Both the position numbers and the translations under genes were made by a program. A stretch of DNA of 64,000 bases from Pyrococcus yayanosii CH1 (GTDB lineage Archaea; Methanobacteriota_B; Thermococci; Thermococcales; Thermococcaceae). Location of the stretch: assembly GCF_000215995.1 (NCBI RefSeq), contig NC_015680.1, forward strand, positions 1,178,001 to 1,242,000, given 5' to 3'. Shown piece after piece: positions 632 through 16,786 of this stretch. The notes beneath the pieces were generated by a model. It worked only from the letters and a program-made list of their open reading frames with translations. It did not search any database and was not told the DNA's origin. Each line of letters opens with the position of its first letter. Within the stretch, counting starts at the first letter, position 1.

Positions 632-1141
632 ATGGAAGAAACGGTGGTCAGGGACAAAAGGGCCCGGAAGAAGATACCCATTAATCTCGTCACAATTAGA
701 CCGGCAAAACTCTTCGACATACCCTACATAATGAGGGTAGAGCACCTATCCTTCCGGGAGAAGTATCCGAGGGGAATATTCCTCACGTTCCTTGAGGCCA
801 ATCCCGACACCTTCCTTGTGGCCGAGTACAATGGAAAGGTTATAGGCTACGTAATGGGTTACCTAAGGCCCGACATGGAGGGCCACATAATGAGCATAGC
901 GGTCGACCCGGAGTACAGGGGGAACGGCATAGGAAAGGCCCTGATGATAGCCGTGATAGAGCGACTCCTCAAGAAGGGAGCCAGATGGATAGGGCTAGAA
1001 GTGAGGGTAAGTAACGAGAGAGCGATAAGACTCTACGAAAGGCTCGGCTTCCGGAAGGTCAAGCGAATTATAGGCTACTACTCAGATGGTGAAGATGCCT
1101 ATTATATGGTGCTCCCGGCCGAGGAGTGGAGGGGGAACTAA
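632..1141 (+). CDS. rimI: GNAT N-terminal acetyltransferase (RimI/Ard1-like)
   Basis: Acetyl-CoA dependent acetyltransferase of the RimI/NAT family, expected to acetylate protein N-termini, including ribosomal proteins. The GNAT fold starts near residue 20 (LVTIRPAKLFDIPYIMRVE). The acetyl-CoA loop is HIMSIAVDPEYRGNGIGKAL, and the family C-terminal signature is NERAIRLYERLGFRKV. The length of 169 residues is normal. It overlaps endA by one base (TAATG), so the two are co-transcribed and probably coupled. A broken second copy of this gene pair lies at 9720-9965. Confidence 0.9.
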   Translation: MEETVVRDKRARKKIPINLVTIRPAKLFDIPYIMRVEHLSFREKYPRGIFLTFLEANPDTFLVAEYNGKVIGYVMGYLRPDMEGHIMSIAVDPEYRGNGIGKALMIAVIERLLKKGARWIGLEVRVSNERAIRLYERLGFRKVKRIIGYYSDGEDAYYMVLPAEEWRGN

Positions 1142-1653
1142 TGAAGGAGCCAATAGAGTTCAGGCTAAGTGGCGACAGGGTCTTCAGCGAGAGAGAGAAG
1201 GCGATAAATCAGCTACACAACAACCGAGGCTACGGGGAGGTCATCGAGGGAAAGCTCTTCCTCTCGCTCGTCGAGGCGGCATACCTTTTGGAGAAGGGGA
1301 AGATAAGAGTACTGGATGGAGACAGGGAGCTCTCGCTTGAGGAGCTCTTTGATCTTGGTCGGAAGCGTGATGAGGACTTTGACGTGAAGTTTCTCGTTTA
1401 TAGGGATCTAAGGGAGAGGGGCTACATCGTTAAATCCGGCCTTAAGTTCGGCTCCCACTACCGCGTTTATAGGAGAGGATCAGAGCACTCGGACTGGCTC
1501 GTTTGGGTGGTGCGGGAGAACGCCAAGCTGAGCCCTAATGACATAACTGCCCGTATCAGAGTGGCCCACGGTGTCAGGAAGAGCATGGTTATGGCTGTGG
1601 TTGACGAGGATGGGGATGTAGTATATTACAGAATCGAGTGGGTGAAGTTTTAA
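1141..1653 (+). CDS. endA: tRNA-splicing endonuclease EndA
   Basis: Homodimeric archaeal endonuclease that cuts bulge-helix-bulge introns from precursor tRNAs and rRNAs. The catalytic triad is visible: Tyr in SHYRVYRRG, His in GSEHSDWLVWVV and Lys in VRKSMVMAVVDE. At 170 residues it has the short euryarchaeal size. I chose the ATG at 1141 because it overlaps the rimI stop and has GGAGGGGG just upstream; an in-frame ATG at 1126 lies inside rimI and lacks a site. The partner gene is rimI, and a relic of endA sits near 9860-9960. Confidence 0.93.
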   Translation: MKEPIEFRLSGDRVFSEREKAINQLHNNRGYGEVIEGKLFLSLVEAAYLLEKGKIRVLDGDRELSLEELFDLGRKRDEDFDVKFLVYRDLRERGYIVKSGLKFGSHYRVYRRGSEHSDWLVWVVRENAKLSPNDITARIRVAHGVRKSMVMAVVDEDGDVVYYRIEWVKF

Positions 1654-1657
1654 CTTA

Positions 1658-1738
1658 AGGCTTAAATAGTGGTAAGGATTTCATGAACAAGCCTGTTTTC
1701 GGTAGCACTTATTGAGGGTGGCAACAATATGAACAAAG
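1658..1738 (+). repeat. Direct repeat copy A (endA 3' flank plus 3' tail of a membrane-protein gene)
   Basis: This stretch is nearly identical to 9960-10006 and 10054-10085. The shared blocks include AGGATTTCATGAACAAG, CTGTTTTCGGTAGC and AATATGAACAAA. On the minus strand the last part reads LFILLPPSIS, which matches LFILLPPPIS, the end of the intact membrane protein at 10049. So the stump of a second copy of that gene follows endA here. Copies A and B bracket about 8.3 kb. Confidence 0.85.
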
Positions 1739-1792
1739 GCAGCCTTCTCCGAGCTGTCCCTTGGGAAAAGAGAAATAACCAGGTATTGAAAT

Positions 1793-2548
1793 CTAAGGGG
1801 AGCAAACGTACTTCACACATCCCCTTTCGAAGGCCTTAAACGAGCCAAGTTTGAGGCCCAGAAGGGCTTTATTGATATCTACCGCCTTCATAGAGGCAAC
1901 GTGCGTCACTCCTGTATCTCTGAAAAACTCGGGGAGCAGTCCTCCAGTTGGGCCAACGAGGATGAACGTCTTGGCGTTTTTGCTCCTGTCAATGAGCATG
2001 TCGAAGGTTCCGTTCACAAGGCTGGTGGCGCTCGCTATTATTGCCTCCATCTCCGGAAGAAGAACGTACTCAAGGGCGTCGCTGAGTGTGTCTTTGGTCC
2101 ACAGCTTGGGGTTCCTCTCGAAAACATAGACATTCTTTCCCTTCCTCCTTAGAACTTCAACAACAGGCTCGATGTTTCCAATCACGGCCACTCTTTCCAC
2201 GTTCTCGGGCACAATCTCAACTATGTCCCTGAGCTCCGCGTCCTCAAGGGAGAAGTGGTACTGGCAGACGGCGTTCATAGCAGCCAGACCAAGGGTCCTC
2301 TCGATGGCGTTGAGTGAGTCCGCCCGCTCTATTAAGGCCGGGAGGGTTATCTCTTCGAGGGAGCTTTCGTACCTTCCCACCTCCTCGCTAAGGGTCATAG
2401 CGACGCCGAGCGCCGATTTTCCACTGTCATCTCTGACGAGAACCCACGTGTATGGCAGGCCGAAGGAAAAATCAGCGAGCTCAAGCCCACGGGAGAGCTT
2501 TAAGACCTTTCTTTTAATCGAGCCTATGAACACCTCAGTCACCTCCAA
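1793..2548 (-). CDS. DUF364/DUF4213 family protein (putative heavy-metal chelation domain)
   Basis: 251-residue cytosolic protein of the DUF4213/DUF364 type, whose fold resembles a Rossmann domain and which often sits beside metal or cofactor transport genes. Visible family features are VAVIGNIEPVVEVLRRKGKN (a nucleotide-fold strand and turn), LPEMEAIIASATSLVNGTFD, and the glycine-rich VGPTGGLLPEFF. It ends with Cys residues (FERGCVKYVCSP) that might bind metal. It overlaps the upstream lipoprotein gene by 14 nt and ends an operon with an iron-type ABC transporter. A role in metal or siderophore handling is inferred from this context. Confidence 0.8.
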   Translation of the reverse strand: MEVTEVFIGSIKRKVLKLSRGLELADFSFGLPYTWVLVRDDSGKSALGVAMTLSEEVGRYESSLEEITLPALIERADSLNAIERTLGLAAMNAVCQYHFSLEDAELRDIVEIVPENVERVAVIGNIEPVVEVLRRKGKNVYVFERNPKLWTKDTLSDALEYVLLPEMEAIIASATSLVNGTFDMLIDRSKNAKTFILVGPTGGLLPEFFRDTGVTHVASMKAVDINKALLGLKLGSFKAFERGCVKYVCSP

Positions 2549-3284
2549 TCCTTATCCCCTTAATGCCGCATATGTTGAGCTCGGGAACGCAGAAACCGTT
2601 CTCGAACTCTATCGTCGGGTTTTTCTCGATAACATCGGAGAGCCTGAAGGTTTTCTCGCCCCGGGACGTTACGAAGGTTACCTCCTTTGCTTCGGGCCAC
2701 GGATCTGCCAGGTTAATGATATCTTTGAGGCCTGCCTTTGATTTTTCATGCTTTACGATGTAGTCAATGCCCTCGAAGATACCTAAGGTTCTTGGAGATA
2801 AATACAACTCGTTCTCCACCATTCCGTATATGTGGAGCGCGCTGCTTTCGTTCAGGAACTCGACCACCTTTATTCTGTCTATCCAGTGGCACTTACACCC
2901 GAAGGATAGACTTGTTATCAGCCTCACCGTCCCGTTTACAGGCTCTCCGTCGCGGTAGAGGGCCAGAACCATGCTGACGTTCGATGGCACGCTGACTATC
3001 TCGCCGTTTTCGGAGATGAAGTTTATCACGTCCCCCTTTCCGAGCTTCTGCGGGGGTATACCTTCCCAGTGGACGGTTCTTCCGAGGGCAAGGTCCGGAA
3101 CGGGCATGTCCGTCAGACCGAGCTTCTTTGGATCCTCCAGTGAAAGCTCCTTCACGCTGTTTCCTGAGATAATGTACAGTGTCCATGTGCCCTCCGAACT
3201 GTTTGTTTCCCCCGTGTTCGAGCCGTTCGAAACGCATCCGCACACAAAAACGGTCAAGATTACAAAGACCAGGATTTTTCTCAT
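2535..3284 (-). CDS. Lipoprotein of unknown function in metal-transport operon
   Basis: 249 residues with a short hydrophobic signal and the lipobox-like VCGC at about residues 14-17, so it is probably anchored to the outer face of the membrane. A Thr/Ser/Asn-rich linker follows. The rest is mainly predicted beta structure and has two Cys pairs (GCKCHW and a pair near the C-terminus), which could bind a metal or form disulfides. I do not recognise a family. It sits between an ABC ATPase gene (4-nt overlap) and the DUF364 gene, which suggests an accessory role in metal or cofactor uptake. Confidence 0.75.
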   Translation of the reverse strand: MRKILVFVILTVFVCGCVSNGSNTGETNSSEGTWTLYIISGNSVKELSLEDPKKLGLTDMPVPDLALGRTVHWEGIPPQKLGKGDVINFISENGEIVSVPSNVSMVLALYRDGEPVNGTVRLITSLSFGCKCHWIDRIKVVEFLNESSALHIYGMVENELYLSPRTLGIFEGIDYIVKHEKSKAGLKDIINLADPWPEAKEVTFVTSRGEKTFRLSDVIEKNPTIEFENGFCVPELNICGIKGIRIGGD

Positions 3285-4036
3285 GGTACCACCTCCCGGG
3301 GAACCATTATCTCGGCGGTAACCCTTTCAACCGGGATGTCATAAAGAACTGAGAGGTTCTGTGGAGTTATCACCTCTTCCGCCCTGCCCCCGGCTATTAT
3401 CTTCCCGTTCTTGAGCAGAAACGCCCTCTCGGAGTACGTCAGGGCGAGGTTCGGGTCGTGGAGTGAAACGAGGACGGGCTTTTTCTCGGAGAGGGATTTT
3501 ATGATGGACATCACCTCGTACTTGTTTTTAAAATCGGGGAAAGAAGTTGGCTCGTCGAAGAGTAAAACCCTTCCCCCCTGAGCCACCGCGCGGGCTATCA
3601 TGACAAGTCTCCTCTCACCGCCGCTGAGCTCAGTGAAGGGCCTGTTTTTTAGCTTTTCGAGGCCGAGGGTTCTTAAGGCCTGGAGCGCGGCTTCTTCATC
3701 CTCTTTTCTTGGCCCCTCGATTGGGTTGATGTAAGGGTTTCTCCCCATAAGAACCATCTGGAAGACCGTGTAGGGGAAGGTTGATGAGAACTCCTGCGGT
3801 GAATACGTTATCAGCTTCGAGACTTCCCTCCGTGGAAGCCCCGTTATGTCCCTGCCATCCACGATCACGCGCCCTGTTTCGGGTCTCAGTATTCCTGCTA
3901 TGCACTTCAGGAGGGTAGTCTTGCCAGCGCCGTTCGGCCCGAGGAGGCAGGTGAGTCCTCTCTCCACCGAAAGGTTTACGCTCTTTAAAACCCGCCTCTG
4001 GCCGTAGGAGAAGCTCAGTCCCTCAACGCACAGCAT
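3281..4036 (-). CDS. ABC transporter ATP-binding protein, iron-siderophore/cobalamin type (FecE/BtuD-like)
   Basis: Complete ATPase subunit of 251 residues. Walker A is GPNGAGKTT, the Q-loop region is YSPQEF, the ABC signature is LSGGERR, Walker B is VLLFDEP and the switch His is in VSLHDPNLAL. The sequence style (TVFQMVLMGRNPYI) is that of FecE/BtuD ATPases, which drive import of iron chelates or cobalamin. Its permease and binding-protein partners upstream are broken, so this intact ATPase probably has no transporter of its own any more unless it serves another one. Confidence 0.9.
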   Translation of the reverse strand: MLCVEGLSFSYGQRRVLKSVNLSVERGLTCLLGPNGAGKTTLLKCIAGILRPETGRVIVDGRDITGLPRREVSKLITYSPQEFSSTFPYTVFQMVLMGRNPYINPIEGPRKEDEEAALQALRTLGLEKLKNRPFTELSGGERRLVMIARAVAQGGRVLLFDEPTSFPDFKNKYEVMSIIKSLSEKKPVLVSLHDPNLALTYSERAFLLKNGKIIAGGRAEEVITPQNLSVLYDIPVERVTAEIMVPREVVP

Positions 4037-4643
4037 ACCATCGCCTCCTCAATATAAGAACGAGCGCAGGGGCGCCTATTATGGACGTCATTACCCCCAG
4101 GGGGAGCTCCATTGGGGCAAGGCTCCTCGCGAGGTCATCGCAGATGATCAAAAGTGTCGCCCCGATCAGGGCCGAGGCAGGGACAAGGATTCTTGCATCG
4201 TGCCCAACCAGGAGCCTGGCTATGTGTGGCGCAATAAGTCCAATCCAACTCACTATCTCGGCCATGGCCGTTGAGGCCGATATGCCAAGGGTTGAAAGCA
4301 GTATTATCAGGGTTCTGTAGACCTTAACGTTCAATCCAAGGGCCTTTGCCTCCTCCTCTCCAAGGCTCAGACATTTAGCGGCCATCGGAGGAGTGCCAGT
4401 CCCGCGATGCAAATCAAAATGGGGATCGGGAGAAAGCTCATACTCTCCCACCTCATTCCCGCGAGGCTCCCGAGGAGCCAGAAGACTATCGTGGGCAGTT
4501 TGTCGTAGGGATCGGCCGTATATTTGGCGATGCCAACCAGGGCCGAGAAAAAGGCCGAGACGGCCATTCCTGCGAGGACGAGGCTCAGGATTCCATCTCC
4601 TATGAGCCTCGATAGGTAACCTTCCCCGGGTCTATGCCGTACC
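4023..4643 (-). pseudogene. FecCD/BtuC-type ABC permease, N-terminally deleted and frameshifted
   Basis: Two frames together encode the C-terminal two thirds of a FecCD permease. The first runs from LIGDGILSLVLAGMAVSAFF to LALLRWPLNV, and the second from LSLGEEEAKALGLNV through SWIGLIAPHIARLLVGHD to the stop. The break is a one-base loss near 4369-4373; restoring one C would join LNV to LSLGEEEA. The first 100 or more residues are absent, and the remainder abuts the end of the binding-protein relic. Such proteins form the membrane channel of iron-chelate importers, but this copy cannot work. Confidence 0.85.
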
Positions 4644-4877
4644 ACTTCCCGTAAAACTCGTCTGCAATTTTCTGGACATCAACATCTTGGAAGAGGTCCG
4701 GGTGTAGAACCTTTGCCAGCCAGTAGAGGCTGAGAACCCACTTTGGAGCAGGATAATCCCAGCTCTCACCGTCGTTGGGCATGGCATACACTTTTCCTTC
4801 CTTCACGGCCTTTATGGACTGCCATGCGGGGTCGTTCAGTATGGTCTTCTTGACCTCCGTGCTCGGGTAGGTGAGCG
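4600..4877 (-). pseudogene. C-terminal fragment of periplasmic (substrate-binding) protein of the ABC importer
   Basis: About 90 codons remain of a TroA/BtuF-like binding protein. Reading from the junction: YPSTEVKKTILNDPAW, then KAVKEGKVYAMPNDGESWD and the typical C-terminal FYGKWYGIDPGKVTY. The 5' four fifths, with its signal peptide, is missing. The break lies at about 4877, where the sequence switches straight into a headless tldD on the other strand. It would have delivered the chelate to the permease. Confidence 0.85.
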
Positions 4878-5542
4878 TCTCCCCTTACTTTGCCGGGATG
4901 ATTGCCCACGAGGCTCTCGGTCACTTGGCTGAGGCAGACCAACTGCCGAACACGCCTTTAGCCAAAAAGCTCGGGGAGCAGATTGCACCGGAGTTTGTTA
5001 GCTTAAGCGACGGGAACGTCGAGAACGGCCACGGGAACGATAGATACGATGACGAAGGCGTCCCAGTCAGAAAAGTTGAAATCCTGAAGGATGGAATCTT
5101 CAACGAGCCCCTCTTGGACAGGGAGAGGGCTTATGAGCTCGGGGTTTCCCCGAACGGTCACGCGAGGGCCGAGAGCTACGCCTTTGAGCCAATGGTGAGG
5201 ATGAGGAACACCTACTTTGAGCCCGGTGACTGGTCCTTCGAGGAGCTTGTTTCCGAGGTTAAGCACGGCTACTACCTCGTCCGCCCTGGACCGGGACAGA
5301 CAGGAGTGGACTCGTCTTTCACCGTTGGTGTCCTCGAGGGATACACAATCGAGAACGGTGAAATTGGGGAGCCAATATTCAACGCCACGGCCACCGGGAG
5401 GGCTCTGGATGCACTTCCCGGAATCCGGGGACTCGGGAAGGAGCTCGACTTCGAGAATACCTACTGCGGGAAGGGCCAGGTGGTTAGGGTGAGCATGGGC
5501 GGGCCACACGTTCTCTTCGAGAGGGGAATAAGGGTGGTGTGA
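4871..5542 (+). pseudogene. tldD: TldD metalloprotease, N-terminal half missing
   Basis: Only the C-terminal 220 residues of TldD (normally about 450-470) are left. The zinc motif HEALGHLAEAD is intact, and the rest includes the TldD signatures LVRPGPGQTGVDSSFTVG and FNATATGRALDALPGIRGLG. TldD and TldE form a heterodimeric protease that degrades unfolded peptides. The ATG/GTG available at the junction is accidental. The N-terminal propeptide-like domain that builds the chamber is absent, so it is probably inactive although the catalytic half is undamaged. It is four-square in phase with tldE, which starts at the next base. Confidence 0.85.
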
Positions 5543-6742
5543 ATGGAGCAGGAAATTTACAGGTTGCGTGAGGAGCGGAAGGGTGTCTCCCTTGAGGGAA
5601 GCTTTAAGCCCTTTGCCAAGGTTAGGGAGTTCACGGCGGTCAGGCTCATCGAAAACGGAAAAATGGGCTCGGCGCTTGCAGAAGGCGAGGGCGAGGCAGA
5701 GGCTTTTAGGCTTGCCCGCGAGACACTTCGCTTTTCCAGTGAAGAGGACTACAGGCTCCCAACTGGCCACAAATCCCGCTGGAAGAGGGCGTTTGAAATT
5801 GACGTTGGCGACCTTGCCGGAGAGCTCTCCGCGCTGGCCGGCGAGCTGAAGGGCATTTCCCTCTCGGGTACGGTGGAGCTCATAACGAGGCGCTTCTCGG
5901 TGGAGAGCACCGCGGGAGCTGACGTTGAGGGTTCATATTCCTTCCTGAGAGCCGAGCTCGAAATCGGGGGTGGGCTTTCCTTTCAGGTTTCCGCGGGCTC
6001 GGCTTCAAAAACGGAACTAATTGAGTTCATTAAGCCATATCTCGAGCTTATCGATAGGCTCGATGAAATCGCGCCCCCAAAAGGGAAAGTTGAGGTGGTC
6101 TTTGCCCCAACGCCACTTTACACCCTTCTTCTCCCCCCAGTCCTCTGGAAGTTTCGGGGAAGAACAGTTGTGAACTCACCGGGGATGGAGGCGAAGGAAG
6201 GGAAAGTCTTGGCCTCGCCTCTCGTGACGGTTCTTGATGATCCTCTCGACGAGGGTTCGCTCCGCTACGTTAAGGCAGACGATGAAGGGGTTAAGGCGAG
6301 AAAAAACTTTCTCATTGAGAAAGGCATTGCTAAAGGACTCTTATGGGACAGCTACACCGCCTGGAAGGCAGGGAAGGAAAGCACGGGCAACGGAATAAGA
6401 ATAGAAGAGGAGGTTTTCGATGGTCCACACAACCTGACGCTTGCACCGGGAAGAGAAACCCTTGAGCGGATGATAGAAGAGGTGGAGAAGGGCTTTTTGG
6501 CCCTTGGCCTCAGGGGGGCAAATGCACTCGACCCAGTGACAGGCAACTTTTCAGTCGTCGTAACGCCTGCCCTAATAATCGAGAGGGGTGAGGTTAAGGG
6601 CTTCTCCCGCTTTGAACTCAAGGGGAACGTCTGGGAACTGCTCAAAACCACCACGGGAGTTGGGAGCGAGCTTACAAGGGTGTGGCTCGACGAAGGGCTC
6701 TCGCTATCCCTACCCTTCCTGAGGACGGAGGTGGTTGTGTGA
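5543..6742 (+). CDS. tldE: TldE (PmbA) subunit of TldD/E protease
   Basis: 399-residue partner of TldD. It lacks the HExxxH zinc motif, as expected for TldE, and carries the family features VVFAPTPLYTLLLPPVLWKF, a central MEAKEGKVLASPLVTVLDDP, and a C-terminal GANALDPVTGNFSVVV. It begins directly after the tldD stop codon and overlaps the methyltransferase gene downstream by 4 nt. With its partner truncated, its present function is doubtful; a second tldDE pair may exist elsewhere in the genome. Confidence 0.88.
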   Translation: MEQEIYRLREERKGVSLEGSFKPFAKVREFTAVRLIENGKMGSALAEGEGEAEAFRLARETLRFSSEEDYRLPTGHKSRWKRAFEIDVGDLAGELSALAGELKGISLSGTVELITRRFSVESTAGADVEGSYSFLRAELEIGGGLSFQVSAGSASKTELIEFIKPYLELIDRLDEIAPPKGKVEVVFAPTPLYTLLLPPVLWKFRGRTVVNSPGMEAKEGKVLASPLVTVLDDPLDEGSLRYVKADDEGVKARKNFLIEKGIAKGLLWDSYTAWKAGKESTGNGIRIEEEVFDGPHNLTLAPGRETLERMIEEVEKGFLALGLRGANALDPVTGNFSVVVTPALIIERGEVKGFSRFELKGNVWELLKTTTGVGSELTRVWLDEGLSLSLPFLRTEVVV

Positions 6743-7350
6743 GAGAAACCCTGGATAACTTCCACTCCAAAGCCGTCGAAGTGTTTAAAAAAGCAGGTGA
6801 CACGGAGGAGGAACTCAAGTGGCTCACCGGTTCGACACTAGCCCTGTTTCCTGCTCACAGGGAGGAGGTCAGGCTGAGGCTTAGAACCATGGAGGAAATC
6901 GTACGGCGGGCAGAAGGGAAAATCCTCGACGTTGGTTCCGGTTCCGGACTGCTTGCCCTCGCGCTCTCCGAGAAGGGAACCGTCATCGGAGTCGAAAAGA
7001 GGGCCGACTTCTTTCCCTTCCTTCGGGAACTTGAGAGCGGAGACCTTAGGTTTATCCGGGCAGATTTCCTCAGCGACGACGTTGGGCGGGACTTTGACAC
7101 CGTGGTCTTCTCCTACACCCTCCACGACCTTGAACCGGAGTCGTTCATAAAACGGGCCGCTGACGTTCTCTCGCCCGGTGGCAGAATCCTCGTCGGCGAC
7201 TTCGACCTTAATGGGTTGAGAGAAAAGGTAAAGGAGCTCACCGGGCTTTATGGGCTCCTCGTGAGTGAGGAGCTCGTCCTCGGATGGGCAACGAGTCACG
7301 GTAGGGAGTGCGATGCGTTCCTGCTCGTTCTCAAAAAACAGGGAGGCTGA
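6739..7350 (+). CDS. Class I SAM-dependent methyltransferase
   Basis: Small methyltransferase of about 203 residues. Motif I for SAM binding is ILDVGSGSGLLALAL, motif II contains VIGVEKR, and motif IV contains VVFSYTLHDLEP. The strand after it is SPGGRILVGDFD. I chose the GTG at 6739, which overlaps the tldE stop (GTGA) and has GGAGGTGG upstream; an in-frame ATG at 6682 lies within tldE and would add an unlikely tail. The substrate is unknown. It belongs to the tldE-methyltransferase-nitrilase operon. Confidence 0.82.
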   Translation: MRETLDNFHSKAVEVFKKAGDTEEELKWLTGSTLALFPAHREEVRLRLRTMEEIVRRAEGKILDVGSGSGLLALALSEKGTVIGVEKRADFFPFLRELESGDLRFIRADFLSDDVGRDFDTVVFSYTLHDLEPESFIKRAADVLSPGGRILVGDFDLNGLREKVKELTGLYGLLVSEELVLGWATSHGRECDAFLLVLKKQGG

Positions 7351-7353
7351 AAA

Positions 7354-8028
7354 ATGAGGGTCGCTCTAATCCCTATGAAGGTTGAGGCTGGAAACTTTGA
7401 GGCCAACTGGCGGGAGTTTGAGAAGCGCTTTGGGGAGGCCCTGAAACATGACCCTGACTTCGTTGTCTTCCCGGAGTACTGTTTAACTGGCTTTGAGGAG
7501 TGGGACTTCAGCGGGGCGGAGCTTTACGGCGAGATAGTTGAGTGGGTGAGCCGGCTTGCCAGGAAGGCGGGTGTTTACGTCGTCTTCGGCCTTTTGGAAC
7601 CCTACAAAAACTGCGTCTACAATTCAGCTTTGCTGATCGGCCGGAACGGGGAAATCCTGCTGAAGCACCGCAAGTTTCAAGAACCTTACAAGTTCTGCAC
7701 CGGCAATACAGTAAGAACTGCAAGAACTGAGTTTGGAAAGGCCGCGATAATCATCTGCGGCGACCTCTACAACAAGAGGATAGCGAAGTGGGTTCGGAAA
7801 AAGAGACCGGACTTCATCTTTATACCGATGGAGTACTCGCCGGACTACGGCGAGCCGAACGAGGAGGATGTGAAGGCAATGTCCGAGCGGGCTGAACTCC
7901 TCGGTGTTAGGACATTCATAGTCAACAGCTACCCGCCGGGCGGGGCTTGGGTCTTCGATGGGGACGGGAACCTGCTGGCTGAGAGCAGGGGAGATAAAAT
8001 GTTGGTGTGGGAAGAAAAGCGGGATTAG
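7354..8028 (+). CDS. Carbon-nitrogen hydrolase (nitrilase superfamily)
   Basis: Single-domain amidase of 224 residues. The Glu-Lys-Cys catalytic triad is visible: Glu in VVFPEYCLTG, Lys in ILLKHRKFQEPY and Cys in AIIICGDLYNK. It probably cleaves an amide such as omega-amidase or beta-ureidopropionase substrates, but the substrate cannot be read from sequence. It lies 3 nt after the methyltransferase gene and converges with the DUF2202 gene, overlapping it by 4 nt. It is shorter than most nitrilases (about 260), so it is a compact version. Confidence 0.85.
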   Translation: MRVALIPMKVEAGNFEANWREFEKRFGEALKHDPDFVVFPEYCLTGFEEWDFSGAELYGEIVEWVSRLARKAGVYVVFGLLEPYKNCVYNSALLIGRNGEILLKHRKFQEPYKFCTGNTVRTARTEFGKAAIIICGDLYNKRIAKWVRKKRPDFIFIPMEYSPDYGEPNEEDVKAMSERAELLGVRTFIVNSYPPGGAWVFDGDGNLLAESRGDKMLVWEEKRD

Positions 8029-8762
8029 GGCTTGCCGCCCCTCCCTTGACCTGTCTCCATCGGGCTATTGATTATCGCCTCGAACTCGTCCTTCGGCAGA
8101 ACCTGCGGCTCGTAGGTTACCCCGTAATTTGAAAGTGTTTTCACGAAGGCCCTCAGGTGATTCCTTGAGCCCATCATGAGGTTCTCGTAGACGGTTATGA
8201 TGTCTATTTTGTCAGTCTGTGCTATCCTCTCCTGCAGGTCGATTATGTCAATTTCCTCTATGTAAGCGCCGACTTTGAGCGCATCTATTTCACTTTTCAT
8301 CCCCTGCTCAACGAGTTGATTGTACAGGTTCTGCAGGTCTCTGTTCTGGAACTCACCAATCCCCCTACTGGTGGTTGGATCGGTCAGGTTGTACTTTTTC
8401 AGGAGCAGTCTGACGGACTCAACATGGGTGGTTTCGCTCTTGGCGATGTTGTTGAATATTGGAAGCCCCCACTTCTCGTAGAGTTTGATGTAAACGTCGT
8501 GCGCCAGCTTCTCCTCCTCGATCATCCAGAGAAGGCTTTCTTTTTCCTGCTGTGTCAGTTCCCCAGCAGGTATGGAATCTATGTAAGATTGAAGACTCTG
8601 GACGTTCAGGTTACCGTTGGTGTCCCCGGTTAAGGGAATCGTATCGTTCGCGGGTTGGGTCGCCGTAGGAGCAGTTGAAGTTTCGCCGATACTTATACAT
8701 CCCGAGGTGATGACCCCCATAGTTAGAATGGCCATCAAGAAAAATGCGTAAATCCTTTTCAC
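8025..8762 (-). CDS. DUF2202 ferritin-like lipoprotein
   Basis: 245 residues. There is a signal peptide with a lipobox-like SGC near residue 21, a Thr/Ala-rich linker, and then a ferritin-like four-helix DUF2202 domain. Metal-ligand candidates are the Glu/His pairs in MIEEEKLAHDVYIKLYEKW and KSETTHVESVRLLLKKY, plus GSRNHLRAFVKTL. Such domains may bind a di-iron centre, but the function is not established. The short basic tail is glycine-rich. It is outside-facing and transcribed toward the nitrilase gene. Confidence 0.85.
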   Translation of the reverse strand: MKRIYAFFLMAILTMGVITSGCISIGETSTAPTATQPANDTIPLTGDTNGNLNVQSLQSYIDSIPAGELTQQEKESLLWMIEEEKLAHDVYIKLYEKWGLPIFNNIAKSETTHVESVRLLLKKYNLTDPTTSRGIGEFQNRDLQNLYNQLVEQGMKSEIDALKVGAYIEEIDIIDLQERIAQTDKIDIITVYENLMMGSRNHLRAFVKTLSNYGVTYEPQVLPKDEFEAIINSPMETGQGRGGKP

Positions 8763-8849
8763 GTTAATCCCCCTCGTTTGTCTTTCATTGGATACTCTGC
8801 CAGAGGTTCATAAATACCTTTTGGTTCATCCGGCTATTCAAAACGATGC

Positions 8850-9184
8850 ATTGTCAAAAGCCATCTCGAAGTCAACCCTGTCGTGGGGCTTGAAGTGGTC
8901 AACGATACCCCTTCCGCTGTCTCCTAAAACGCCCTCACCGTGGGCGTCGTCTATGTAGAGAATCGCGTCGTACTGTTCAGCTAATTCGGCCATCTCTGGG
9001 AGCGGTGCCAAATCACCATCCATGCTGAAGACCCCGGCGCTGACGATGATCTTCTTATCCTTGCTCTCCTCCTTTATCTTGGGATGGGCCGCTAAACCGA
9101 GGTAGTTGTTGGAGCACATACTTCAGAACGCGGTTTCCATCAACCACGACCCAGGGCCCCTAGGAGCTCTCAAGCTTCTTCGCA
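8850..9184 (-). pseudogene. Relic of kbl-like PLP enzyme with internal deletion
   Basis: The relic matches the intact gene at 11713-12900. From its 5' side it reads [12 protein letters not shown] (preceded by an in-frame stop), [17 protein letters not shown], then jumps about 120 codons to [20 protein letters not shown] and runs to HDRVDFEM. The PLP lysine region and everything after it is missing. The 5' edge coincides with the IS-like end at 9185. It is clearly non-functional. Confidence 0.9.
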
Positions 9185-9705
9185 ACCTCCTCCCCCCTTA
9201 GCTAAGGGTTCCAACGCCTTAACCCCTTGCTAGTGGGGAGGTTTGAGGGGTTCTCATTAGAGAACCCGTTCTAATCGGTTCATAAAGTTTTTTAACAGTG
9301 TTAATGTAATGCCTCGCCTGAAGTTTAGCTTTCTTATGCATTCTCTTGAGCCTCCTGCCCGTTTTGGCTTCAGACTTGTTGAATTTCGACTGATATTCTC
9401 AAATCTTTCTCCTCCAGTAAAAATCAATGCTTTTGAGGCTTCGGCGGCAGTTTTACCTGCTCTTTCACTGCCAGAGGGTGTTGTTCTCTACCCTCTGCTG
9501 CTTTCAGTTGGATCAGTTGGAATTGGGCTAACTGAAGACCGTCAGGAATATGCCCTTGTTGGTATAACAGTCCTGCCTACTGACAAAGACAAGACATCCC
9601 AAAAGAGGGCTCATCCTTCAGAATACTCTGTGGCCTCAATGCATAATCCCAGTATTTGGTGATTGCTGGAACGTTTTTTGAGGCCAAACATTAGAAGCTT
9701 TGGCG
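9185..9705 (-). pseudogene. Degraded TnpB-like (IS605/IS1341-type) element
   Basis: On the minus strand, scattered frames give TnpB-like text: KALIFTGGERFENIS, then after a frameshift FNKSEAKTGRRLKRMHKKAK and ARHYINTVKKLYEPIR. Stops and shifts interrupt every frame. The downstream end (9185-9222) closely matches the right end of the element at 16264-16299: ACCTCCTCCCC, then AGGGTTCCAACG, then TTAACCCCT. TnpB is an RNA-guided nuclease of IS200/IS605 elements. The plus-strand reading frame across 9309-9662 is most likely a shadow. There is no other gene in this stretch. Confidence 0.65.
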
Positions 9706-9719
9706 CGTAGCTTATAACA

Positions 9720-9965
9720 TGAGTGTGTCCGTTAGGGAAGCTGGCCGAATTCCCCTCGACATTCCCGACGTAGTGAGGATAGAGAAGGAATCTTTACAGG
9801 GCCGAGCACATGAGCATAGCCGTTGACCCCGCCTACAAAGGCAAGGCAGCGGACTGGAGAAGGCCATAAACCAGCTCTACAACAAGCGGTACTTCGGCAG
9901 AATGATCAATGGTAGGCTCTTTCTCTCGCTCCTTGATACGGCCTATCTTGTTGAGCGAGAGGCTT
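9720..9965 (+). pseudogene. Fused remnants of rimI and endA
   Basis: The remnant starts with a rimI-like N-terminus (LDIPDVVRIEKESL, compare FDIPYIMRVEHLSF at 632-1141). It jumps to HEHSR in one frame and MSIAVDPAYKGKA in another. It then passes into endA text, EKAINQLYNKRYFGRMINGR and LFLSLLDTAYLVE, which ends abruptly in the shared 3' flank. Both genes lost their middle and their catalytic parts. The order matches the intact operon at 632-1653. Confidence 0.88.
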
Positions 9966-10086
9966 AAAATAGCGAGGATTTCATGAACAAGTCTGTTTTC
10001 GGTAGCCCCTGCTAAGGATGTCCTTTATCAGGAATGCAAAAGGGAGGACTAAACACTTATTGGGGGTGGTAATAATATGAACAAAA
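9960..10086 (+). repeat. Direct repeat copy B (endA 3' flank)
   Basis: Counterpart of 1658-1738. It starts AGGCTTAAAATAG, continues with the common GGATTTCATGAACAAG and CTGTTTTCGGTAGC blocks, and then has an extra stretch of about 47 bp before CACTTATTG and AATATGAACAAA. Here the second block is the intact 3' end of the membrane-protein gene at 10049. This shows that the left copy is the truncated one for that gene. Confidence 0.85.
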
Positions 10087-10852
10087 CCACCCCGATGCTG
10101 AACGACGCCAGATAAGCAATTATGCCGATATATGGTCTGAGCTTCCTTCCAAGGAGGTAAAACGACAGTCCCCAGGCCCCTATGATAAGAAAACCTTCGA
10201 TTCCGCGCCTTAAATATATGGGGAAATAGAGGTAGTCAACCAGCCGGATTATCGTTATTATCCATCCCGTATACATGAGGGGAAACAGGGAAAGTACTGG
10301 GTCTATCCCGTTTTCCTTCAGCTTGAAAATACGGAGAGCCAGCTTAATCCCCAGTACCCAGAGGAGAACCCTAAAAATTGCGCTTACTATTAGAATTATA
10401 GGCATCTCATAGAACCCTGCGAGCTCAAGGGCGAGCACGTTGGGAGTATAGAGGGAAACAGCGATAGTAACAATTCTGGAGAAGGATATTGGGGAATAAA
10501 ACGCCAGAAATACATACAACAAGAGCAGTACCATAAACCCCACGATATTTTTTGAGTAACCATTTTTGCCAACTATCCACGCAAGTGAGATTGATAGTAG
10601 AACCAATATCACCAATGAAAGGATAAGAACGTTGTACATGGCTACAAAATTAGTATCTCTTTCTTGTCTGACCTGCTCATGAAGATACTCCTTAAAGGCT
10701 TCTCTACTTTTGCTAGCTAATATAATTCCCGTCACTAAAGTTGCTGGGAACAGGATATGCCGGGAAATCCCCGATTTAATCAGGTAAGGGATGGCGAAAA
10801 TAAGTAAAAGAAGCGTTTGGAATAGAATTGTGGCTTTCAGTCTGATTTTCAT
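10049..10852 (-). CDS. Polytopic membrane protein of unknown function
   Basis: About 267 residues, mostly hydrophobic, with seven or eight likely membrane spans (for example ATILFQTLLLLIFAIPYLI and YNVLILSLVILVLLSISLAW). No family is recognised. I prefer the ATG at 10852, which has GAGGTG 5-6 nt upstream; a GTG at 10858 overlaps the stop of the upstream gene. It forms a two-gene operon with the secreted protein before it. Base composition is lower in GC than that of its neighbours. A stump of a second copy of its 3' end lies at 1707-1738. Confidence 0.75.
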   Translation of the reverse strand: MKIRLKATILFQTLLLLIFAIPYLIKSGISRHILFPATLVTGIILASKSREAFKEYLHEQVRQERDTNFVAMYNVLILSLVILVLLSISLAWIVGKNGYSKNIVGFMVLLLLYVFLAFYSPISFSRIVTIAVSLYTPNVLALELAGFYEMPIILIVSAIFRVLLWVLGIKLALRIFKLKENGIDPVLSLFPLMYTGWIITIIRLVDYLYFPIYLRRGIEGFLIIGAWGLSFYLLGRKLRPYIGIIAYLASFSIGVVLFILLPPPISV

Positions 10853-10854
10853 TG

Positions 10855-11514
10855 TCACACCTCGGTGATTTTTATGTAGTCATAACTGACTCCCGAAGCT
10901 CCCAGCAAGCCGGTGAGGGCTCCTGCGAGTCCAGCCAGCACGTAACCCAAGATGGTTCCTCCAAGATCACTTAAAAACGTGTCAATTTCATCGTAGGTGT
11001 TTGCTCCCAGCACAAGTATGCCGTAGCTCTCCCCTTTTCCTCTTGAGAACTTAACTGGGACTTTAAAGGCGGACATGGTCCAACCGCTGTTCTCAATCTT
11101 GAACTTATGGAACGGCTTGCCCCATTTCTTCGTTGTTCCCTCGTATTTAACCTCGTTCCACTTCCATTCTACCTCATTAGGGTATAACGTAACACCGCTT
11201 GGAACCCCTATCCAGACCCGATAGCCTCCTATTGGCAACTTTCCGATACCCACTACCAGTGAAAGTTTGCTTCCATGTTTCACCTTGTAATGTTTGTATG
11301 CAAAGAATATCAAGTGTACTATCCTCTTATCCTGAATGCCACTTCCGTCGAGATACACTTCTAAAGCAGCTCCGGGTGTTACTGACTGGGGTTGAACATC
11401 CCCACCAACCCATTGCTGTTTGTTATAGGTGCTTGGAATCGCCATTGCACTTCCTGCAGTCACTCCTACCATCAGCAGTCCCAAGAGAACTGCCAACAGG
11501 CCTTTCCACTTCAT
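10855..11514 (-). CDS. Secreted/membrane-anchored protein of unknown function
   Basis: 219 residues beginning MKWKGLLAVLLGLLMVG, a Sec signal peptide ending near AMA. A beta-rich extracellular part follows, and then a Gly/Ala/Leu-rich segment near the C-terminus (GTILGYVLAGLAGALTGLLG) that could be a membrane anchor or a bacteriocin-like amphipathic helix. I chose the ATG at 11514 for its GGTGA site; an in-frame ATG at 11556 would put 14 unlikely residues before the signal. It overlaps the membrane protein gene downstream, so the two are probably a functional pair. No family is recognised. Confidence 0.75.
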   Translation of the reverse strand: MKWKGLLAVLLGLLMVGVTAGSAMAIPSTYNKQQWVGGDVQPQSVTPGAALEVYLDGSGIQDKRIVHLIFFAYKHYKVKHGSKLSLVVGIGKLPIGGYRVWIGVPSGVTLYPNEVEWKWNEVKYEGTTKKWGKPFHKFKIENSGWTMSAFKVPVKFSRGKGESYGILVLGANTYDEIDTFLSDLGGTILGYVLAGLAGALTGLLGASGVSYDYIKITEV

Positions 11515-11712
11515 GAGGTCACCTTCGTAGGGTTGTCTGCAATGTCTGCTATCCAACTTTATCTTATAAGTTTTTCCATTTACTTAAAGTAAATCTTCCC
11601 TTAGGATTTGTCAAAAGTAGCCTGAGTAAAAATGGTGATACAATCGGTGATCCTTAGGCCACAACTGCCTGCGCGTAGACTCAAATGGGGGGTAAAAAAG
11701 AGCGATCACGCT

Positions 11713-12900
11713 TCACTTCAAAAAGCCGGTCTTTTTGCCCAGATCCTCGAAGGCATCGATGACGTACTGGAGATCTTCCTTAGTGTGGGCCGCTGAAGGC
11801 TCAAGCCTTATTCTCGCCGTTCCGAGCGGGACGGTCGGATAAACAATCGCCTGCGCGAAGATGTTGTACTCGTCATATAGGCGTTTGCTGAACTCCTGGG
11901 CAAGCTTCTCGTCGTAGAGCATGACCGGCGTTATCGGGTGCTTGGTGTTGCCGAGGTCGTAGCCGAGGTCTCTCAAACCTTTCTGGAGGAAGTGAGTGTT
12001 ATCCCAGAGCTTCTTGACGAGCTCATCACTCTTCTGAAGTATCTCTACGGCCGCTATCGCCGCGGCAACGTCAGGTGGGTTCATGGCACTTGAAAATAGA
12101 AACGGCCTCGCCCTCTGCTTGAGATACTCTATAGCCTCCTCAGGTCCGGCGACGTAGCCGCCTATTACTCCAAAGGCCTTGCTTAGTGTACCCATCTCGA
12201 AATCAACGCGATCGTGGAGCTTGAAGTGGTCTACTATTCCACGGCCATGCTCTCCAAGGACACCCTCACCGTGGGCATCGTCTACGTAAACTATTGCATC
12301 GTACTGCTCGGCAAGCTCAACTATCTCCGGCAGGGGAGCGAGGTCGCCGTCCATCGAGAAGACTCCGTCAGTGACGATGATTTTCTTCTTCTTATCCTTG
12401 TTCTCCTCCAGCTTCTTCTTGAGGTCGTCCATGTCTATGTGCTTGTAGATAACCTTAGGAGCGCCGCTGAGGCGCATTCCGTCGATTATGCTCGCATGGT
12501 TGAGCTCCTCGCTGATAAAGACGCCATCCTCCCCCTTCCTAAGGAGGGCACTTATTGAACCAAGATTCGCATTGTAACCGCTCTGGAAGAGTATTGCCGC
12601 TTCCCTCTTCTTGAACTTAGCCAATTTCTCTTCTAGCTCGACGTGAAGCTCCATGGTCCCTGCAATCGTCCTAACGGCTCCGGCACCGACGCCATAGTCA
12701 AGGATAGCCCTTATGGCAGCCTCCTTAATCTTCGGGTGGGCTGCGAGGCCGAGATAGTTGTTGGAACACATGTTGAGAACTCTCTTGCCATCAACGACGA
12801 CCCATGGTCCCTGGGCGCTTTGGAGAACCCTTATGGTTACGTAGAGGCCCTTCTCCTTGAGCTCCTTAAGCTCCTCGGTAATCCAGTCAAGCTTCCCCAT
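11713..12900 (-). CDS. kbl: 2-amino-3-ketobutyrate CoA ligase-like PLP enzyme (alpha-oxoamine synthase family)
   Basis: PLP-dependent acyl transferase of 395 residues in the Kbl/BioF/HemA family. It is most likely glycine C-acetyltransferase, which cleaves 2-amino-3-ketobutyrate with CoA in threonine breakdown. Family features are the N-terminal [17 protein letters not shown], the ring-stacking His in [15 protein letters not shown], the Asp in [13 protein letters not shown], and the PLP lysine in [14 protein letters not shown] chose the ATG at 12900 for its GGTGGT site; earlier in-frame starts at 12912 and 12951 lack one. A crippled copy sits at 8850-9184. Confidence 0.88.
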
Positions 12901-12993
12901 AGAAACCACCATCAATGGATTGAGTTTCACCGCTATAAAACTTTCGTCCAAAGGTTTTTATCCGATGATGGCCCATCCTCCCCGGGTGGCCCT

Positions 12994-14304
12994 ATGGCGG
13001 GAATAGAGAGAGTAAGGGGAACGCGGGACTTCTCTCCAGAGGAGATGGCGAAGAGGCGATGGGTTTTCGAGAGAATAAGGGAAGTCTTCGAGCTCTATGG
13101 GTTCAAAGAGATTCTAACACCCACCCTCGAGTACACTAAGCTCTTCCAGCTGAGAAGTGGGGAGGAGGTCGTCAAGCAGCTCTACGCTTTCAAGGATAAG
13201 GGTGGCCGCGATGTATCCCTGAGACCCGATATGACGTCAAGCGTCGCCCGTCTCTTCGTCAATGAGTTCCAGAATGCTCCAAAGCCCATCAAGTGGTATT
13301 ACATCGCCAACATGTTTCGATACGAGGAGCCCCAGAGCGGTCGCTACAGGGAGTTCTGGCAGGCCGGTGTTGAGCTGATAGGAAGCGATAGAGTGGAGGC
13401 GGACGCAGAGGTCATAGCACTCCTCGTGGAGAGCTACCTTGCTACCAGACTGAAGGACTTCACGGTGAACATAGGAGACAGGGTTTTGCTCGACGAATTC
13501 GCAAGAGAGCTCGGTGTCGAGGACGATGTAGGTTTGATGAGACTCGTAGACAAGAAAGACAAGATGAGCCGGGAGGACTTCATTAAGGCTTTAAGGGATT
13601 TCGGCCTCGACGATGGAAGCGTTGAGAAAGTTCTCTCGCTAATCGAAATGAAAGGCAAGCCCGATGACGTTCTGCCAAAGGCAGAGGAGCTCTTCAGGAG
13701 CGAGAAGGCCAGAGCGGAGATTGAACGCCTCTACGAGCTCGTTGACCTGCTTGAGGCTTACGGCGTCGGAGATTTCATCCTGATAGATCTCGGTATAGCA
13801 AGGGGCCTCGACTACTACACGAGCGTCGTCTTCGAGGCGATAGCGCCCAATGACATCGGCATAGGGTCGATAGGTGGTGGCGGCCGCTACGATAACCTCA
13901 TAGAGGTCTTTGGAGGGAAGCCTACACCTGCCACGGGCTTTGCCATAGGGATAGAGAGGCTAATCCCAATACTGGAGTGGAAGGGCCTCCTTCCGGAGCC
14001 GAAGTTGGGGGCAGAGGTTTATGTGATACCCATTGGAGACGACCCAGAAGTCAGGAGAGCGGCCCTTAAGATAACGGCGGAGCTCAGGAGGGCAGGGGTT
14101 AGGGCGGACCACGAGCTCATGGGTAGGAAGCTTAGGAAGGCCCTCGACTACGCTGGAAGGCTCGGCGTTCCCTACGTCGTTCTCGTCGGAAAGAAGGACC
14201 TTGCAGAGGGAAGGGTGACGGTAAGGGACATGGAGAGCGGCGAGCAGAGAACAGTGGAAATTGACAAGGTTGATGAAGAGGTTTTAGGGTTACTCAGGAG
14301 ATAG
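12994..14304 (+). CDS. hisS: Histidyl-tRNA synthetase
   Basis: Class II synthetase of 436 residues that charges tRNA-His. Motif 1 lies in GFKEILTPTLEYTKLF, motif 2 in WYYIANMFRYEEPQSGRYRE, the HisRS-specific LDYYTSVVFEA follows RG, and motif 3 is in ATGFAIGIERLIPIL. The C-terminal anticodon-binding domain runs from about residue 345 (EVYVIPIGDDPEVRRAALKI). I chose the ATG at 12994, preceded by GGTGG; the open frame extends upstream to 12643 but that part is antisense to kbl. It is divergent from kbl and apparently has its own promoter. Confidence 0.96.
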   Translation: MAGIERVRGTRDFSPEEMAKRRWVFERIREVFELYGFKEILTPTLEYTKLFQLRSGEEVVKQLYAFKDKGGRDVSLRPDMTSSVARLFVNEFQNAPKPIKWYYIANMFRYEEPQSGRYREFWQAGVELIGSDRVEADAEVIALLVESYLATRLKDFTVNIGDRVLLDEFARELGVEDDVGLMRLVDKKDKMSREDFIKALRDFGLDDGSVEKVLSLIEMKGKPDDVLPKAEELFRSEKARAEIERLYELVDLLEAYGVGDFILIDLGIARGLDYYTSVVFEAIAPNDIGIGSIGGGGRYDNLIEVFGGKPTPATGFAIGIERLIPILEWKGLLPEPKLGAEVYVIPIGDDPEVRRAALKITAELRRAGVRADHELMGRKLRKALDYAGRLGVPYVVLVGKKDLAEGRVTVRDMESGEQRTVEIDKVDEEVLGLLRR

Positions 14305-14356
14305 AGCCCATTGCTTTCTTCTGAAAAATAATAAAATTGAAATCAAGGAGATATCC

Positions 14357-15775
14357 TCAACTTGCATCTCCATTTTTTGTAGTTATGCAAATTCCCGTTC
14401 TTGGGTTGCATGGTGGGGATGGTGATTTGCCATCGGTTATAATGCCGAAGACCAATGGGACGTTAACCTTTGGCCCACCAGCCCTCACATTCACACTTAC
14501 AACGCTGTACATTGCATAACAACTCTTCCTTGGCTTAATGTCAACATCGTACACTGCAATCGATACCGCGTTCATGCACTTGTGAAATCCGAACGTCAGG
14601 CTGAGTGCGCTGGCCAATCTTCCAAGCTTCGGGCTTACTCCAGTAAGATACTTTCCGGCCGCATAGCCTATTGGAATGCTCAAGCTCGACCTAGAGGAAA
14701 GTGAATTGGCCTGAAGTTGCTTTATGAATACTGCTTCCTCCCAGTTTCCGATATTGCCAATCCACTTTCTCTTCCATTCTGCTTCTTTTGAGATACTCCA
14801 GATGTTGGGAGTCTTTGTAATTCTTGGAGGATTCTGCCCCACAGATTTCTCGAACCTCCATCCTTCTCCCAGCTCTTTAATATTGTAATCTCCAGTGCTG
14901 TGGATTTTGATGGGGTATGTTTGGACTATTTCTATGTCAACGTATTTCTTTGTGAGCTTATCATATGCGGGAACTTTGGCGTGAACCACGATATACCCAA
15001 CCCTAATGTTCAGATACCTCTCCCAGGTGTTTGAATTGACTGTTAAGGGTCCCAATGATTGATAGCTTACATCAAGTGCCCATCCTTCGAAGTTGTGTCC
15101 TTTAGATACGCTGAGGACTGTAAAAGGCCCAACGTCAATTCCAATCGTCCAGTAGCTGTAGGTGCTCCTGCTGAGTAGGAGATCCCAGTCAAAATCAATC
15201 TCTTCTGCAACTCGATTTTCTATTTTTAGCCCCATCACTGAAACCCACTCGTCAAAAGTCTTTGCCTTTGCCCTGCTTTCAAAGTAGAAATCCCAGTTTG
15301 AGGCTAGGCAGTACCTTCCCCCAAAGTCCATGTAACCATTTGGACAAGAGCCCGTTGCCTGAACATTGTAGCTTCCCTTCAAGTCGAGAAATTCGCCTTC
15401 AAGCCTGATCCTGCTTGAGGTTACGCTTTTCACTCCAAGCCTTCCGTCTTTGGTTATGTAGAGGATTAGGGGAGTTGGTGGGGCGTAGAGAGCTTTCTCA
15501 GTAGTTGAGAATTCCTTTATCCATTCCTGCCTGGGCACTTTGACGAAGACTGGGAAGAATCCGCCAGCTTTTCCGATTTTCAGTACTTTAACACTCCCAT
15601 TGGGCAGAGGGTAGTAGATAACGTAGTTGCCCGAACCTTCAATCTTGTACACATCGTAGCCGAATATTCTACTTACGGAGTCCTCGTTATTCACCATGTA
15701 GTTCAAGGCCCCCACAATAGTTCCTCCAAAAAGAATCAATAACCAAACTACCAACAAAAATTCCCTACTCACCAT
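14357..15775 (-). CDS. Large secreted or membrane-anchored protein, unknown
   Basis: About 472 residues. An N-terminal hydrophobic helix (FLLVVWLLILFGGTIVGAL) serves as signal or anchor. It is followed by a long extracellular beta-rich region with many Tyr, Trp and Gly residues and two or three Cys pairs (CPNGYMDFGGRYC, and near the end CKxx-type and CNPRTGIC). No family is recognised. The ATG at 15775 follows a weak site; a TTG at 15793 with GGTGAT before it is an alternative. GC content is lower than that of the flanking hisS, as in the secreted gene at 10855. Its role could be at the cell surface. Confidence 0.72.
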   Translation of the reverse strand: MVSREFLLVVWLLILFGGTIVGALNYMVNNEDSVSRIFGYDVYKIEGSGNYVIYYPLPNGSVKVLKIGKAGGFFPVFVKVPRQEWIKEFSTTEKALYAPPTPLILYITKDGRLGVKSVTSSRIRLEGEFLDLKGSYNVQATGSCPNGYMDFGGRYCLASNWDFYFESRAKAKTFDEWVSVMGLKIENRVAEEIDFDWDLLLSRSTYSYWTIGIDVGPFTVLSVSKGHNFEGWALDVSYQSLGPLTVNSNTWERYLNIRVGYIVVHAKVPAYDKLTKKYVDIEIVQTYPIKIHSTGDYNIKELGEGWRFEKSVGQNPPRITKTPNIWSISKEAEWKRKWIGNIGNWEEAVFIKQLQANSLSSRSSLSIPIGYAAGKYLTGVSPKLGRLASALSLTFGFHKCMNAVSIAVYDVDIKPRKSCYAMYSVVSVNVRAGGPKVNVPLVFGIITDGKSPSPPCNPRTGICITTKNGDAS

Positions 15776-15979
15776 AGTTATTCCCAACAACAATCACCCC
15801 ACACAAACTTATAAAATTTACTCTTAATTCTTATAGGCTTTTTGTTATTTGATGACTTTACTAGTCTCCTTAAGTAGCGGGGCGAGACGCAGGAGGTGGG
15901 CTAGGGGACAATATCTGAGCCATCCAGCTAATCTTGATGTGCCGACAGAGTCCCATTAACAAAAAATTGCAAAGAAGGG

Positions 15980-16105
15980 CTATTTCCTCTTAAGTTCGAA
16001 CTTCCTGACCATTCTACGCACCCGCCACTCTTCGAACCTTCTCACGAAAGGACATCTTGTCCTCCACTTAGTGTATATCTCCTTGAGAGCCCTAATCATG
16101 GACAT
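15980..16105 (-). CDS. Small basic protein (41 aa), hypothetical
   Basis: Open frame of 41 codons starting ATG (16105), with a second ATG at 16099. The product is very rich in Arg and Lys (KEIYTKWRTRCPFVRRFEEW, then RVRRMVRKFELKRK) and looks helical. A TATA-like A/T run lies about 30 nt upstream (16140-16155), but there is no clear ribosome binding site. It could bind nucleic acid or could be chance. The rest of the 15776-16260 stretch shows no other coding signal. Confidence 0.35.
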   Translation of the reverse strand: MSMIRALKEIYTKWRTRCPFVRRFEEWRVRRMVRKFELKRK

Positions 16106-16261
16106 TGCCCCCAGCCAAAGTAGTTAAATCCCTAGGACAAATTAATTTTTTAAGGTAATGGTGCTGCCGATAAACCCACTTCCAGCTGTCCAAGGTGAAC
16201 GGCCAGAACACGATTTATCCCATGGACCTCCCAATTATCCACCATCTCCTCTACACACAAC

Positions 16262-16680: not shown

Positions 16681-16786
16681 GTTCCCTCGCTCTCCCCGAT
16701 GGTGTTGAGACGGCAAATCAATAGCTGGAGAAGAAGTTCCGGCCTATAAAAGCGTAGGGATTAAAATACCTAAGTGTCGAAAACAT

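Follow-up and report, generated by a model that had tools for sequence, protein, structure and literature searches.

Decayed rimI-endA and kbl copies of apparent Thermococcus type beside their intact counterparts in Pyrococcus yayanosii CH1

The genome of Pyrococcus yayanosii CH1 carries rimI, endA and kbl each as one intact and one decayed copy, and the decayed copies resemble the genes of another genus more than they resemble their intact neighbors. The locus lies at the left end of the window, the 64,000-nucleotide stretch of DNA analyzed here (1,178,001-1,242,000 of the 1,716,818-base single-contig genome). The genome agrees with P. yayanosii CH1 in its tRNA genes: two islands published for this strain have their ends at tRNA-Gln (1,343,016) and tRNA-Gly (1,255,863) (PMC5126054), and the present sequence has tRNA-Gln at 1,342,940-1,343,015 and tRNA-Gly at 1,255,785-1,255,862. 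That a foreign Thermococcus segment integrated by a single Campbell-type crossover, with one copy of each gene decaying afterward, can be held with slightly more confidence than doubt. The genus code g1 includes the window and stands for Pyrococcus, g2 is the group termed Thermococcus here, and the NCBI name Thermococcus is also borne by one genome of code g5 (G020).

Read from left to right, the locus opens with rimI and endA, both intact, and a short stretch of endA 3' flank that ends in the tail of the gene mem. A composite cargo of ∼7 kb comes next, then the kbl relic, the relic of a TnpB element, the rimI relic with its promoter region and the endA relic. The flank then recurs, followed by mem, sec, the intact kbl and hisS. 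Direct repeats connect 8861-9062 with 12192-12393 (74%) and 9068-9119 with 12720-12771 (83%) for kbl, 890-924 with 9810-9844 (77%) and 1195-1293 with 9857-9955 (72%) for rimI-endA, and 1675-1720 with 9975-10020 and 1706-1744 with 10054-10092 (85% each) for the flank. In 200 dinucleotide shuffles of each, the maximum score is 29 for the kbl relic, which scores 156.5, and 30.5 for the rimI-endA relic with the flank, which scores 67. The relics had been noticed in a preliminary description of this DNA, which is borne out here: the repeats exceed all shuffles, the order and coordinates of the pieces are close to those it gave, and the alignments of relics with intact copies that it proposed return similarities of 72 to 85%. 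The genus needs correcting, from the Thermococcus that it assumed to Pyrococcus.

Ancestry of the relics

Judged from its sequence, the rimI-endA relic is of foreign, Thermococcus-group ancestry. It comprises a rimI part on the plus strand with promoter region and internal deletion (∼9690..9845) and an endA part of ∼codons 18 to 52, also on the plus strand (9855..9958), whose closest relative is that of the Thermococcus-type genome G022. In a ranking that used no reference, the three pieces of the relic were compared with 63 relatives and the intact copy of the window; the best 26 of these 64 sequences all belong to the Thermococcus group, and the intact copy ranks 47th. In the alignment on G014 and G022, which leans slightly to these two, the relic agrees with G022 in 167 of 202 columns, compared to 130 of 202 with the intact copy. 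The tree joins the relic to G022 (support of 99/94) and the intact genes to seven Pyrococcus-group rows (99/97). Approximately unbiased (AU) tests, each comparing two trees only, reject the relic and the intact copy as sisters (p 0.023) as well as a position of the relic within Pyrococcus (p 0.0075). An origin of the rimI relic from a paralogue, considered in view of five GNAT matches in the genome, was dropped, as its start (VSVREAG...RIPL...DIPDVVRIE) aligns with Thermococcus-group rimI at the corresponding position.

The intact genes, rimI (632..1141, plus strand, TIGR01575) and endA (1144..1653, plus strand, TIGR00324), are of the native Pyrococcus type. On the relic columns, their highest raw identity is to G015 of code g4 (74%), so the evidence for the native placement is the tree together with an indel in endA: the intact gene and eight Pyrococcus-group rows lack a one-residue insertion present in the rows of other genera.

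A foreign, Thermococcus-group ancestry is likewise strongly supported for the kbl relic (8853..9178, minus strand), of which only pieces of the 5' part remain (∼codons 42 to 77 and 182 to 264). Aligned on G018, to which it leans slightly, the relic shares 268 of 306 nucleotides with G064 and G041 and 231 of 306 with the intact kbl of the window, which comes 26th of 34. It falls inside Thermococcus-group clades (97/93 and 99/98, the latter including G015). For this tree and ranking, the Thermococcus group was represented by 14 kbl rows, 10 of them picked from the best matches of a search of 94 genomes; wider sets were used for the rimI-endA ranking and tree and for the kbl segment trees. In the 94-genome search itself, the core of the relic is best matched by G041 (88%, compared to 74% for the window's own kbl) and its N-terminal piece by G064 (92%, compared to 79%). 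The kbl of G015 (L056) is itself a Thermococcus-group-like allele inside the 99/98 clade, a sign of intergenus kbl exchange elsewhere.

These comparisons bear on the origin proposed in the preliminary description, a tandem duplication of a native block within the lineage followed by complementary decay. The same order in both copies, the shared flank and the similarity of 72 to 85% agree with it. The copies are, however, not each other's closest relatives, as the identity counts of both relics show; the relics group with another genus, the kbl relic within its clades and the rimI-endA relic at the p values given above, so that a duplication is rejected, for rimI-endA at p 0.023, and appears highly improbable overall. 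The preliminary description had itself named relics closer to paralogues elsewhere than to the copies in the window as grounds for abandoning the idea, and the relics do prove closer to sequences elsewhere, here Thermococcus-group orthologues. Of its further suggestions, the reciprocal survival of the genes holds up, and a homologous insertion is supported.

The intact kbl, gene order and course of integration

The surviving kbl is probably a Pyrococcus/Thermococcus hybrid, for which the sequence support is moderate. It lies on the minus strand, with its 5' part at 12022..12951 (homologues begin near 12909) and its last ∼102 codons at 11713..12021. Codons 166 to 310 group with Pyrococcus (98/94), and codons 311 to 412 group with the Thermococcus group and G015 (98/87, with a bootstrap that is not quite settled). 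When G048 is paired in turn with five Pyrococcus sequences, the maximum chi-square (max-chi2) method places a break at codons 310 to 326 every time (permutation p ≤0.001). With purine/pyrimidine coding, which strips most of the G+C effect, codons 311 to 412 reach 92.2% with the best Pyrococcus sequence and 96.4% with the best one of the Thermococcus group. The kbl relic stops at codon 264, its reciprocal 3' part is absent, and the window holds one probable hybrid kbl.

The gene order of relatives supplies the frame for the relics. In every one of the 59 loci measured, endA and kbl are transcribed toward each other across an interval of 27 to 3735 bp (median of 965), and rimI lies upstream of endA in each. 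This answers the question, raised in the preliminary description, of whether these genes are neighbors in relatives: rimI-endA and kbl are collinear in 59 of 63 genomes, and endA and kbl are convergent neighbors in 60, the 60th being G008, whose contig ends inside endA. The genes are apart in G010, G011 and G015, and the fragmented G019 was left out of the count. Forty of the loci, part of the further family genomes and mostly chosen for long contigs, were fetched at the kbl match irrespective of endA, and the pair is found in 40 of 40. The foreign tract of P. yayanosii has the order kbl 5' part, TnpB, rimI, endA, mem, sec and Thermococcus-like kbl 3' part. This is a circular permutation of the rimI-endA-cargo-kbl order seen in the 59 loci, as is characteristic of Campbell-type integration.

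We infer the following course. An ancestor of P. yayanosii would have taken up a Thermococcus-derived chromosomal segment with the order rimI-endA-cargo-kbl, and this segment would have recombined with its native counterpart of the same gene order. If the donor was circular or in tandem, a single crossover, most likely inside kbl near codon 310, would double the rimI-endA pair and turn both kbl copies into hybrids, the left one with the 5' part of the donor. Of the rimI-endA pairs, the native one would have outlasted the subsequent decay and the foreign one succumbed to it; of the kbl copies, the one whose 5' part is native would have survived and the one whose 5' part is foreign would have been lost.

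Several points weigh against this course. The order of the pieces by itself is given equally by a tandem duplication; a single crossover is thus favored only together with the foreign ancestry of the relics, and for the kbl relic, the AU test against pairing with the intact kbl is borderline (p 0.061), a pairing that costs 30 log units. The max-chi2 break depends on G048, a partner picked after viewing a tree, and four other Thermococcus-group partners give p values of 0.038 to 0.74. AU tests that include G015, which sits inside the Thermococcus group, allow the 3' end of kbl with Pyrococcus (p 0.167) and codons 166 to 310 with the Thermococcus group (p 0.31); tests without G015 give p 0.0445 for codons 322 to 412 with the Thermococcus group and p 1e-5 for codons 20 to 310. 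The amino acid tree of the kbl 3' end is not resolved, with G098 of code g6 nearest but unsupported. A crossover in kbl would not account for the flank copy on the native side (1658-1744) if no mem cassette was there beforehand, the nearest donors differ among the pieces (G022, G014, G064/G041 and G048/G052), and no circle is observed.

The differing donors would be expected if several independent exchanges at a hotspot, either double crossovers or homology-assisted illegitimate joins, had accumulated foreign scraps over time, with the TnpB element between two of the scraps by chance. The composite nature of the cargo, where the tail of a binding protein stands beside a C-terminal tldD, points in the same direction, as does G022, which also carries a kbl 3' scrap in its interval. 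Independent exchanges alone, however, fail to predict the uniform conserved orientation and the single circular permutation of the order, and they are considered a possible but rather doubtful origin. The scrap of G022 (L051:9304-9543) covers codons 333 to 412 between kbl and endA and is the sole extra partial copy in the 59 loci; its identity of 216/226 to the genome's own kbl marks it as a recent local copy.

Cargo and shared flank

The two copies of the flank, whose sharing by both endA genes was correctly recognized in the preliminary description, comprise the endA 3' flank with the final bases of mem on the left (1658..1744) and the endA 3' flank with the mem 3' end on the right (9960..10092). 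The window contains the flank motif two times, compared to 0.00 expected occurrences. A 133-base query of the flank finds no convincing match in 24 other genomes (best E of 0.09); G063, from outside this set, contains most of the flank (from 9980 on) in a single copy. The mem gene (10049..10858, minus strand) encodes a membrane protein by eye, with only a subthreshold DUF1761 match, and the adjacent sec (10855..11556, minus strand) encodes a secreted protein by eye, without Pfam or NCBIfam match. Of 94 family genomes, 8, including this one, match mem at E 1e-5. The protein is 82% identical to that of G063, where the gene also follows endA; at the nucleotide level, the identity is 85.6% over 925 bases, a stretch that takes in much of the flank. 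In G102 of code g6, too, endA has sec and mem next to it, and partial or distant relatives of sec are found between kbl and endA in some relatives. The G+C content at third codon positions (GC3) is 48 for mem and 51 for sec, compared to 63 to 67 in five native genes measured here. The left mem tail is part of the shared flank, and the right mem is read here together with sec as cargo.

There are two ways to explain the duplicated flank beside native endA: a mem cassette was present in the native interval beforehand, or the crossover took place in the flank. In the latter case, the donor would have brought the cargo, the kbl relic, the TnpB element and the rimI-endA relics by a Campbell-type crossover in the endA 3' flank, with mem, sec and kbl already in place and the kbl 3' end exchanged separately. 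This accounts for a flank that is doubled only here and for the Thermococcus-like tldD-tldE of the cargo. It requires a second exchange for the kbl mosaic, however, and in tldE-bearing relatives with both genes on one contig, tldE is far from kbl (e.g., G014, G060, G050 and G069). The low GC3 of mem and sec relative to the native genes also speaks against it, although composition indicates only recent cargo. A crossover in the flank is regarded as quite unlikely.

The cargo block (1745..8820), assigned by domain scans and partly by eye, encodes a DUF364 protein, a putative lipoprotein (by eye), an ABC transporter, the C-terminal part of tldD, a tldE-like protein, a methyltransferase, a nitrilase-like protein and a DUF2202 protein. 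The transporter is reduced to a truncated permease and pieces of a binding protein (the pieces by eye) and abuts the partial tldD, of which only the C-terminal domain is present. At 4600-5542, the tail of the substrate-binding protein (by eye) adjoins this domain in an internal deletion joint of the cargo. The tldD-tldE part is 88.6% identical to G014 over 1874 bases. At E 1e-60, 13 of the 94 family genomes have a match to tldE, the present genome among them, and no orthologue at this threshold occurs in the other eight Pyrococcus-group genomes. Relatives of tldE and of the DUF2202 gene lie within ∼6 kb of each other in G022, G049, G060 and G069 (the counterpart in the window is 5543-8762); as they are near neighbors in four genomes, this portion of the cargo may have been transferred together. 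Such cargo beside kbl in Thermococcus was looked for and, by eye, is unseen for tldE and close relatives of the DUF2202 gene where they share a contig with kbl; other genomes have the genes on different contigs. No integrase is found among 17 proteins of the region, a scan that leaves aside the ABC permease, the binding-protein pieces and small open reading frames, and there is no tRNA target in 1-35497 of the window. The locus is absent from the 15 islands predicted for P. yayanosii (PMC5126054).

At the joint between the kbl relic and the rimI relic lies the relic of a TnpB element (9185..9443, minus strand), as the preliminary description had recognized. The segment 9279-9443 matches residues 227 to 286 of a TnpB protein with an OrfB_IS605 domain encoded elsewhere in the genome (E 8e-20), and 9222-9281 matches residues 419 to 439 of the same protein (E 0.009), with additional support at the DNA level. 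A stretch at 9444-9689 separates this element from the rimI relic. In the Pyrococcus-group genome G005 (L036), an apparent end of a TnpB element lies, by eye, directly 3' of endA.

Known systems and neighboring genes

Campbell-type (single-crossover) integration leaves partial diploidy. The locus resembles such an integration in that the insert is permuted relative to its target and has homologous copies at both ends, of which one is probably hybrid. It differs in that no element or circle is seen, the proposed donor being a chromosome piece of another genus, and in that one copy of each gene has been lost by decay.

A second comparison is offered by hotspots of transfer through homologous recombination, for which PMC5635113 proposes double recombination in bacterial species. 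As in these hotspots, variable cargo lies between conserved core genes, here endA and kbl in 59 of 59 measured loci, no integrase appears among the 17 scanned proteins, and a flanking core gene bears a sign of exchange, the segments of kbl grouping with conflicting genera. Unlike in the hotspots as described there, core-gene scraps of another genus persist, in an order pointing to a single crossover, which would set the locus apart from a clean double exchange. A third system comes from the Thermococcales themselves, where inversions are frequent: the pTN3 integrase can act on pairs of segments of ∼100 bp in a way that imitates homologous recombination, as demonstrated in T. nautili and in vitro for inversions and for integration (PMC5495485).

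The locus belongs to a known kind, of which it is a well-preserved case; a literature search by title and start of abstract found no paper on it. It would represent an exchange of core genes between two archaeal genera that was frozen midway, with native, foreign and probably hybrid copies legible side by side. For apparent duplicates with complementary decay, a foreign origin should accordingly be tested, and the endA-kbl interval is a place to measure recombination between Pyrococcus and Thermococcus. Tentatively, and with considerable doubt, it can be proposed that Thermococcus chromosomal segments travel as circles, closed for instance at a TnpB element, and integrate in Pyrococcus by one core-gene crossover; the endA-kbl interval would then be a fixed site in the Thermococcaceae at which core enzymes, Kbl among them, are replaced by intergenus hybrids.

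Beyond kbl, the native neighbor hisS (12994..14304, plus strand, TIGR00442) adjoins kbl in eight Pyrococcus-group relatives as well. In seven Pyrococcus-group genomes with a longer stretch, the MarR-like regulator gene reg22 (22-504) lies beyond hisS, and alaS lies on the rimI side in five of the seven; in the window, reg22 stands beside rimI, and alaS stands beyond hisS. By this comparison, the block from rimI to hisS appears locally inverted between its outer neighbors relative to five of the seven relatives. The ends of the inversion fall at 505-631 and 14305-16846, the right one of which holds a remnant of a TnpB element (16261-16335 and 16627-16663). An inversion mediated by TnpB is not supported, with no element seen at the left breakpoint (504-632) and a remnant near the right one. 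Beside hisS, 14357-15793 encodes a protein of 478 residues without Pfam or NCBIfam match, the gene of which is among the cargo of the endA-kbl interval in 4 of the 40 further loci (G056, G062, G065 and G096).

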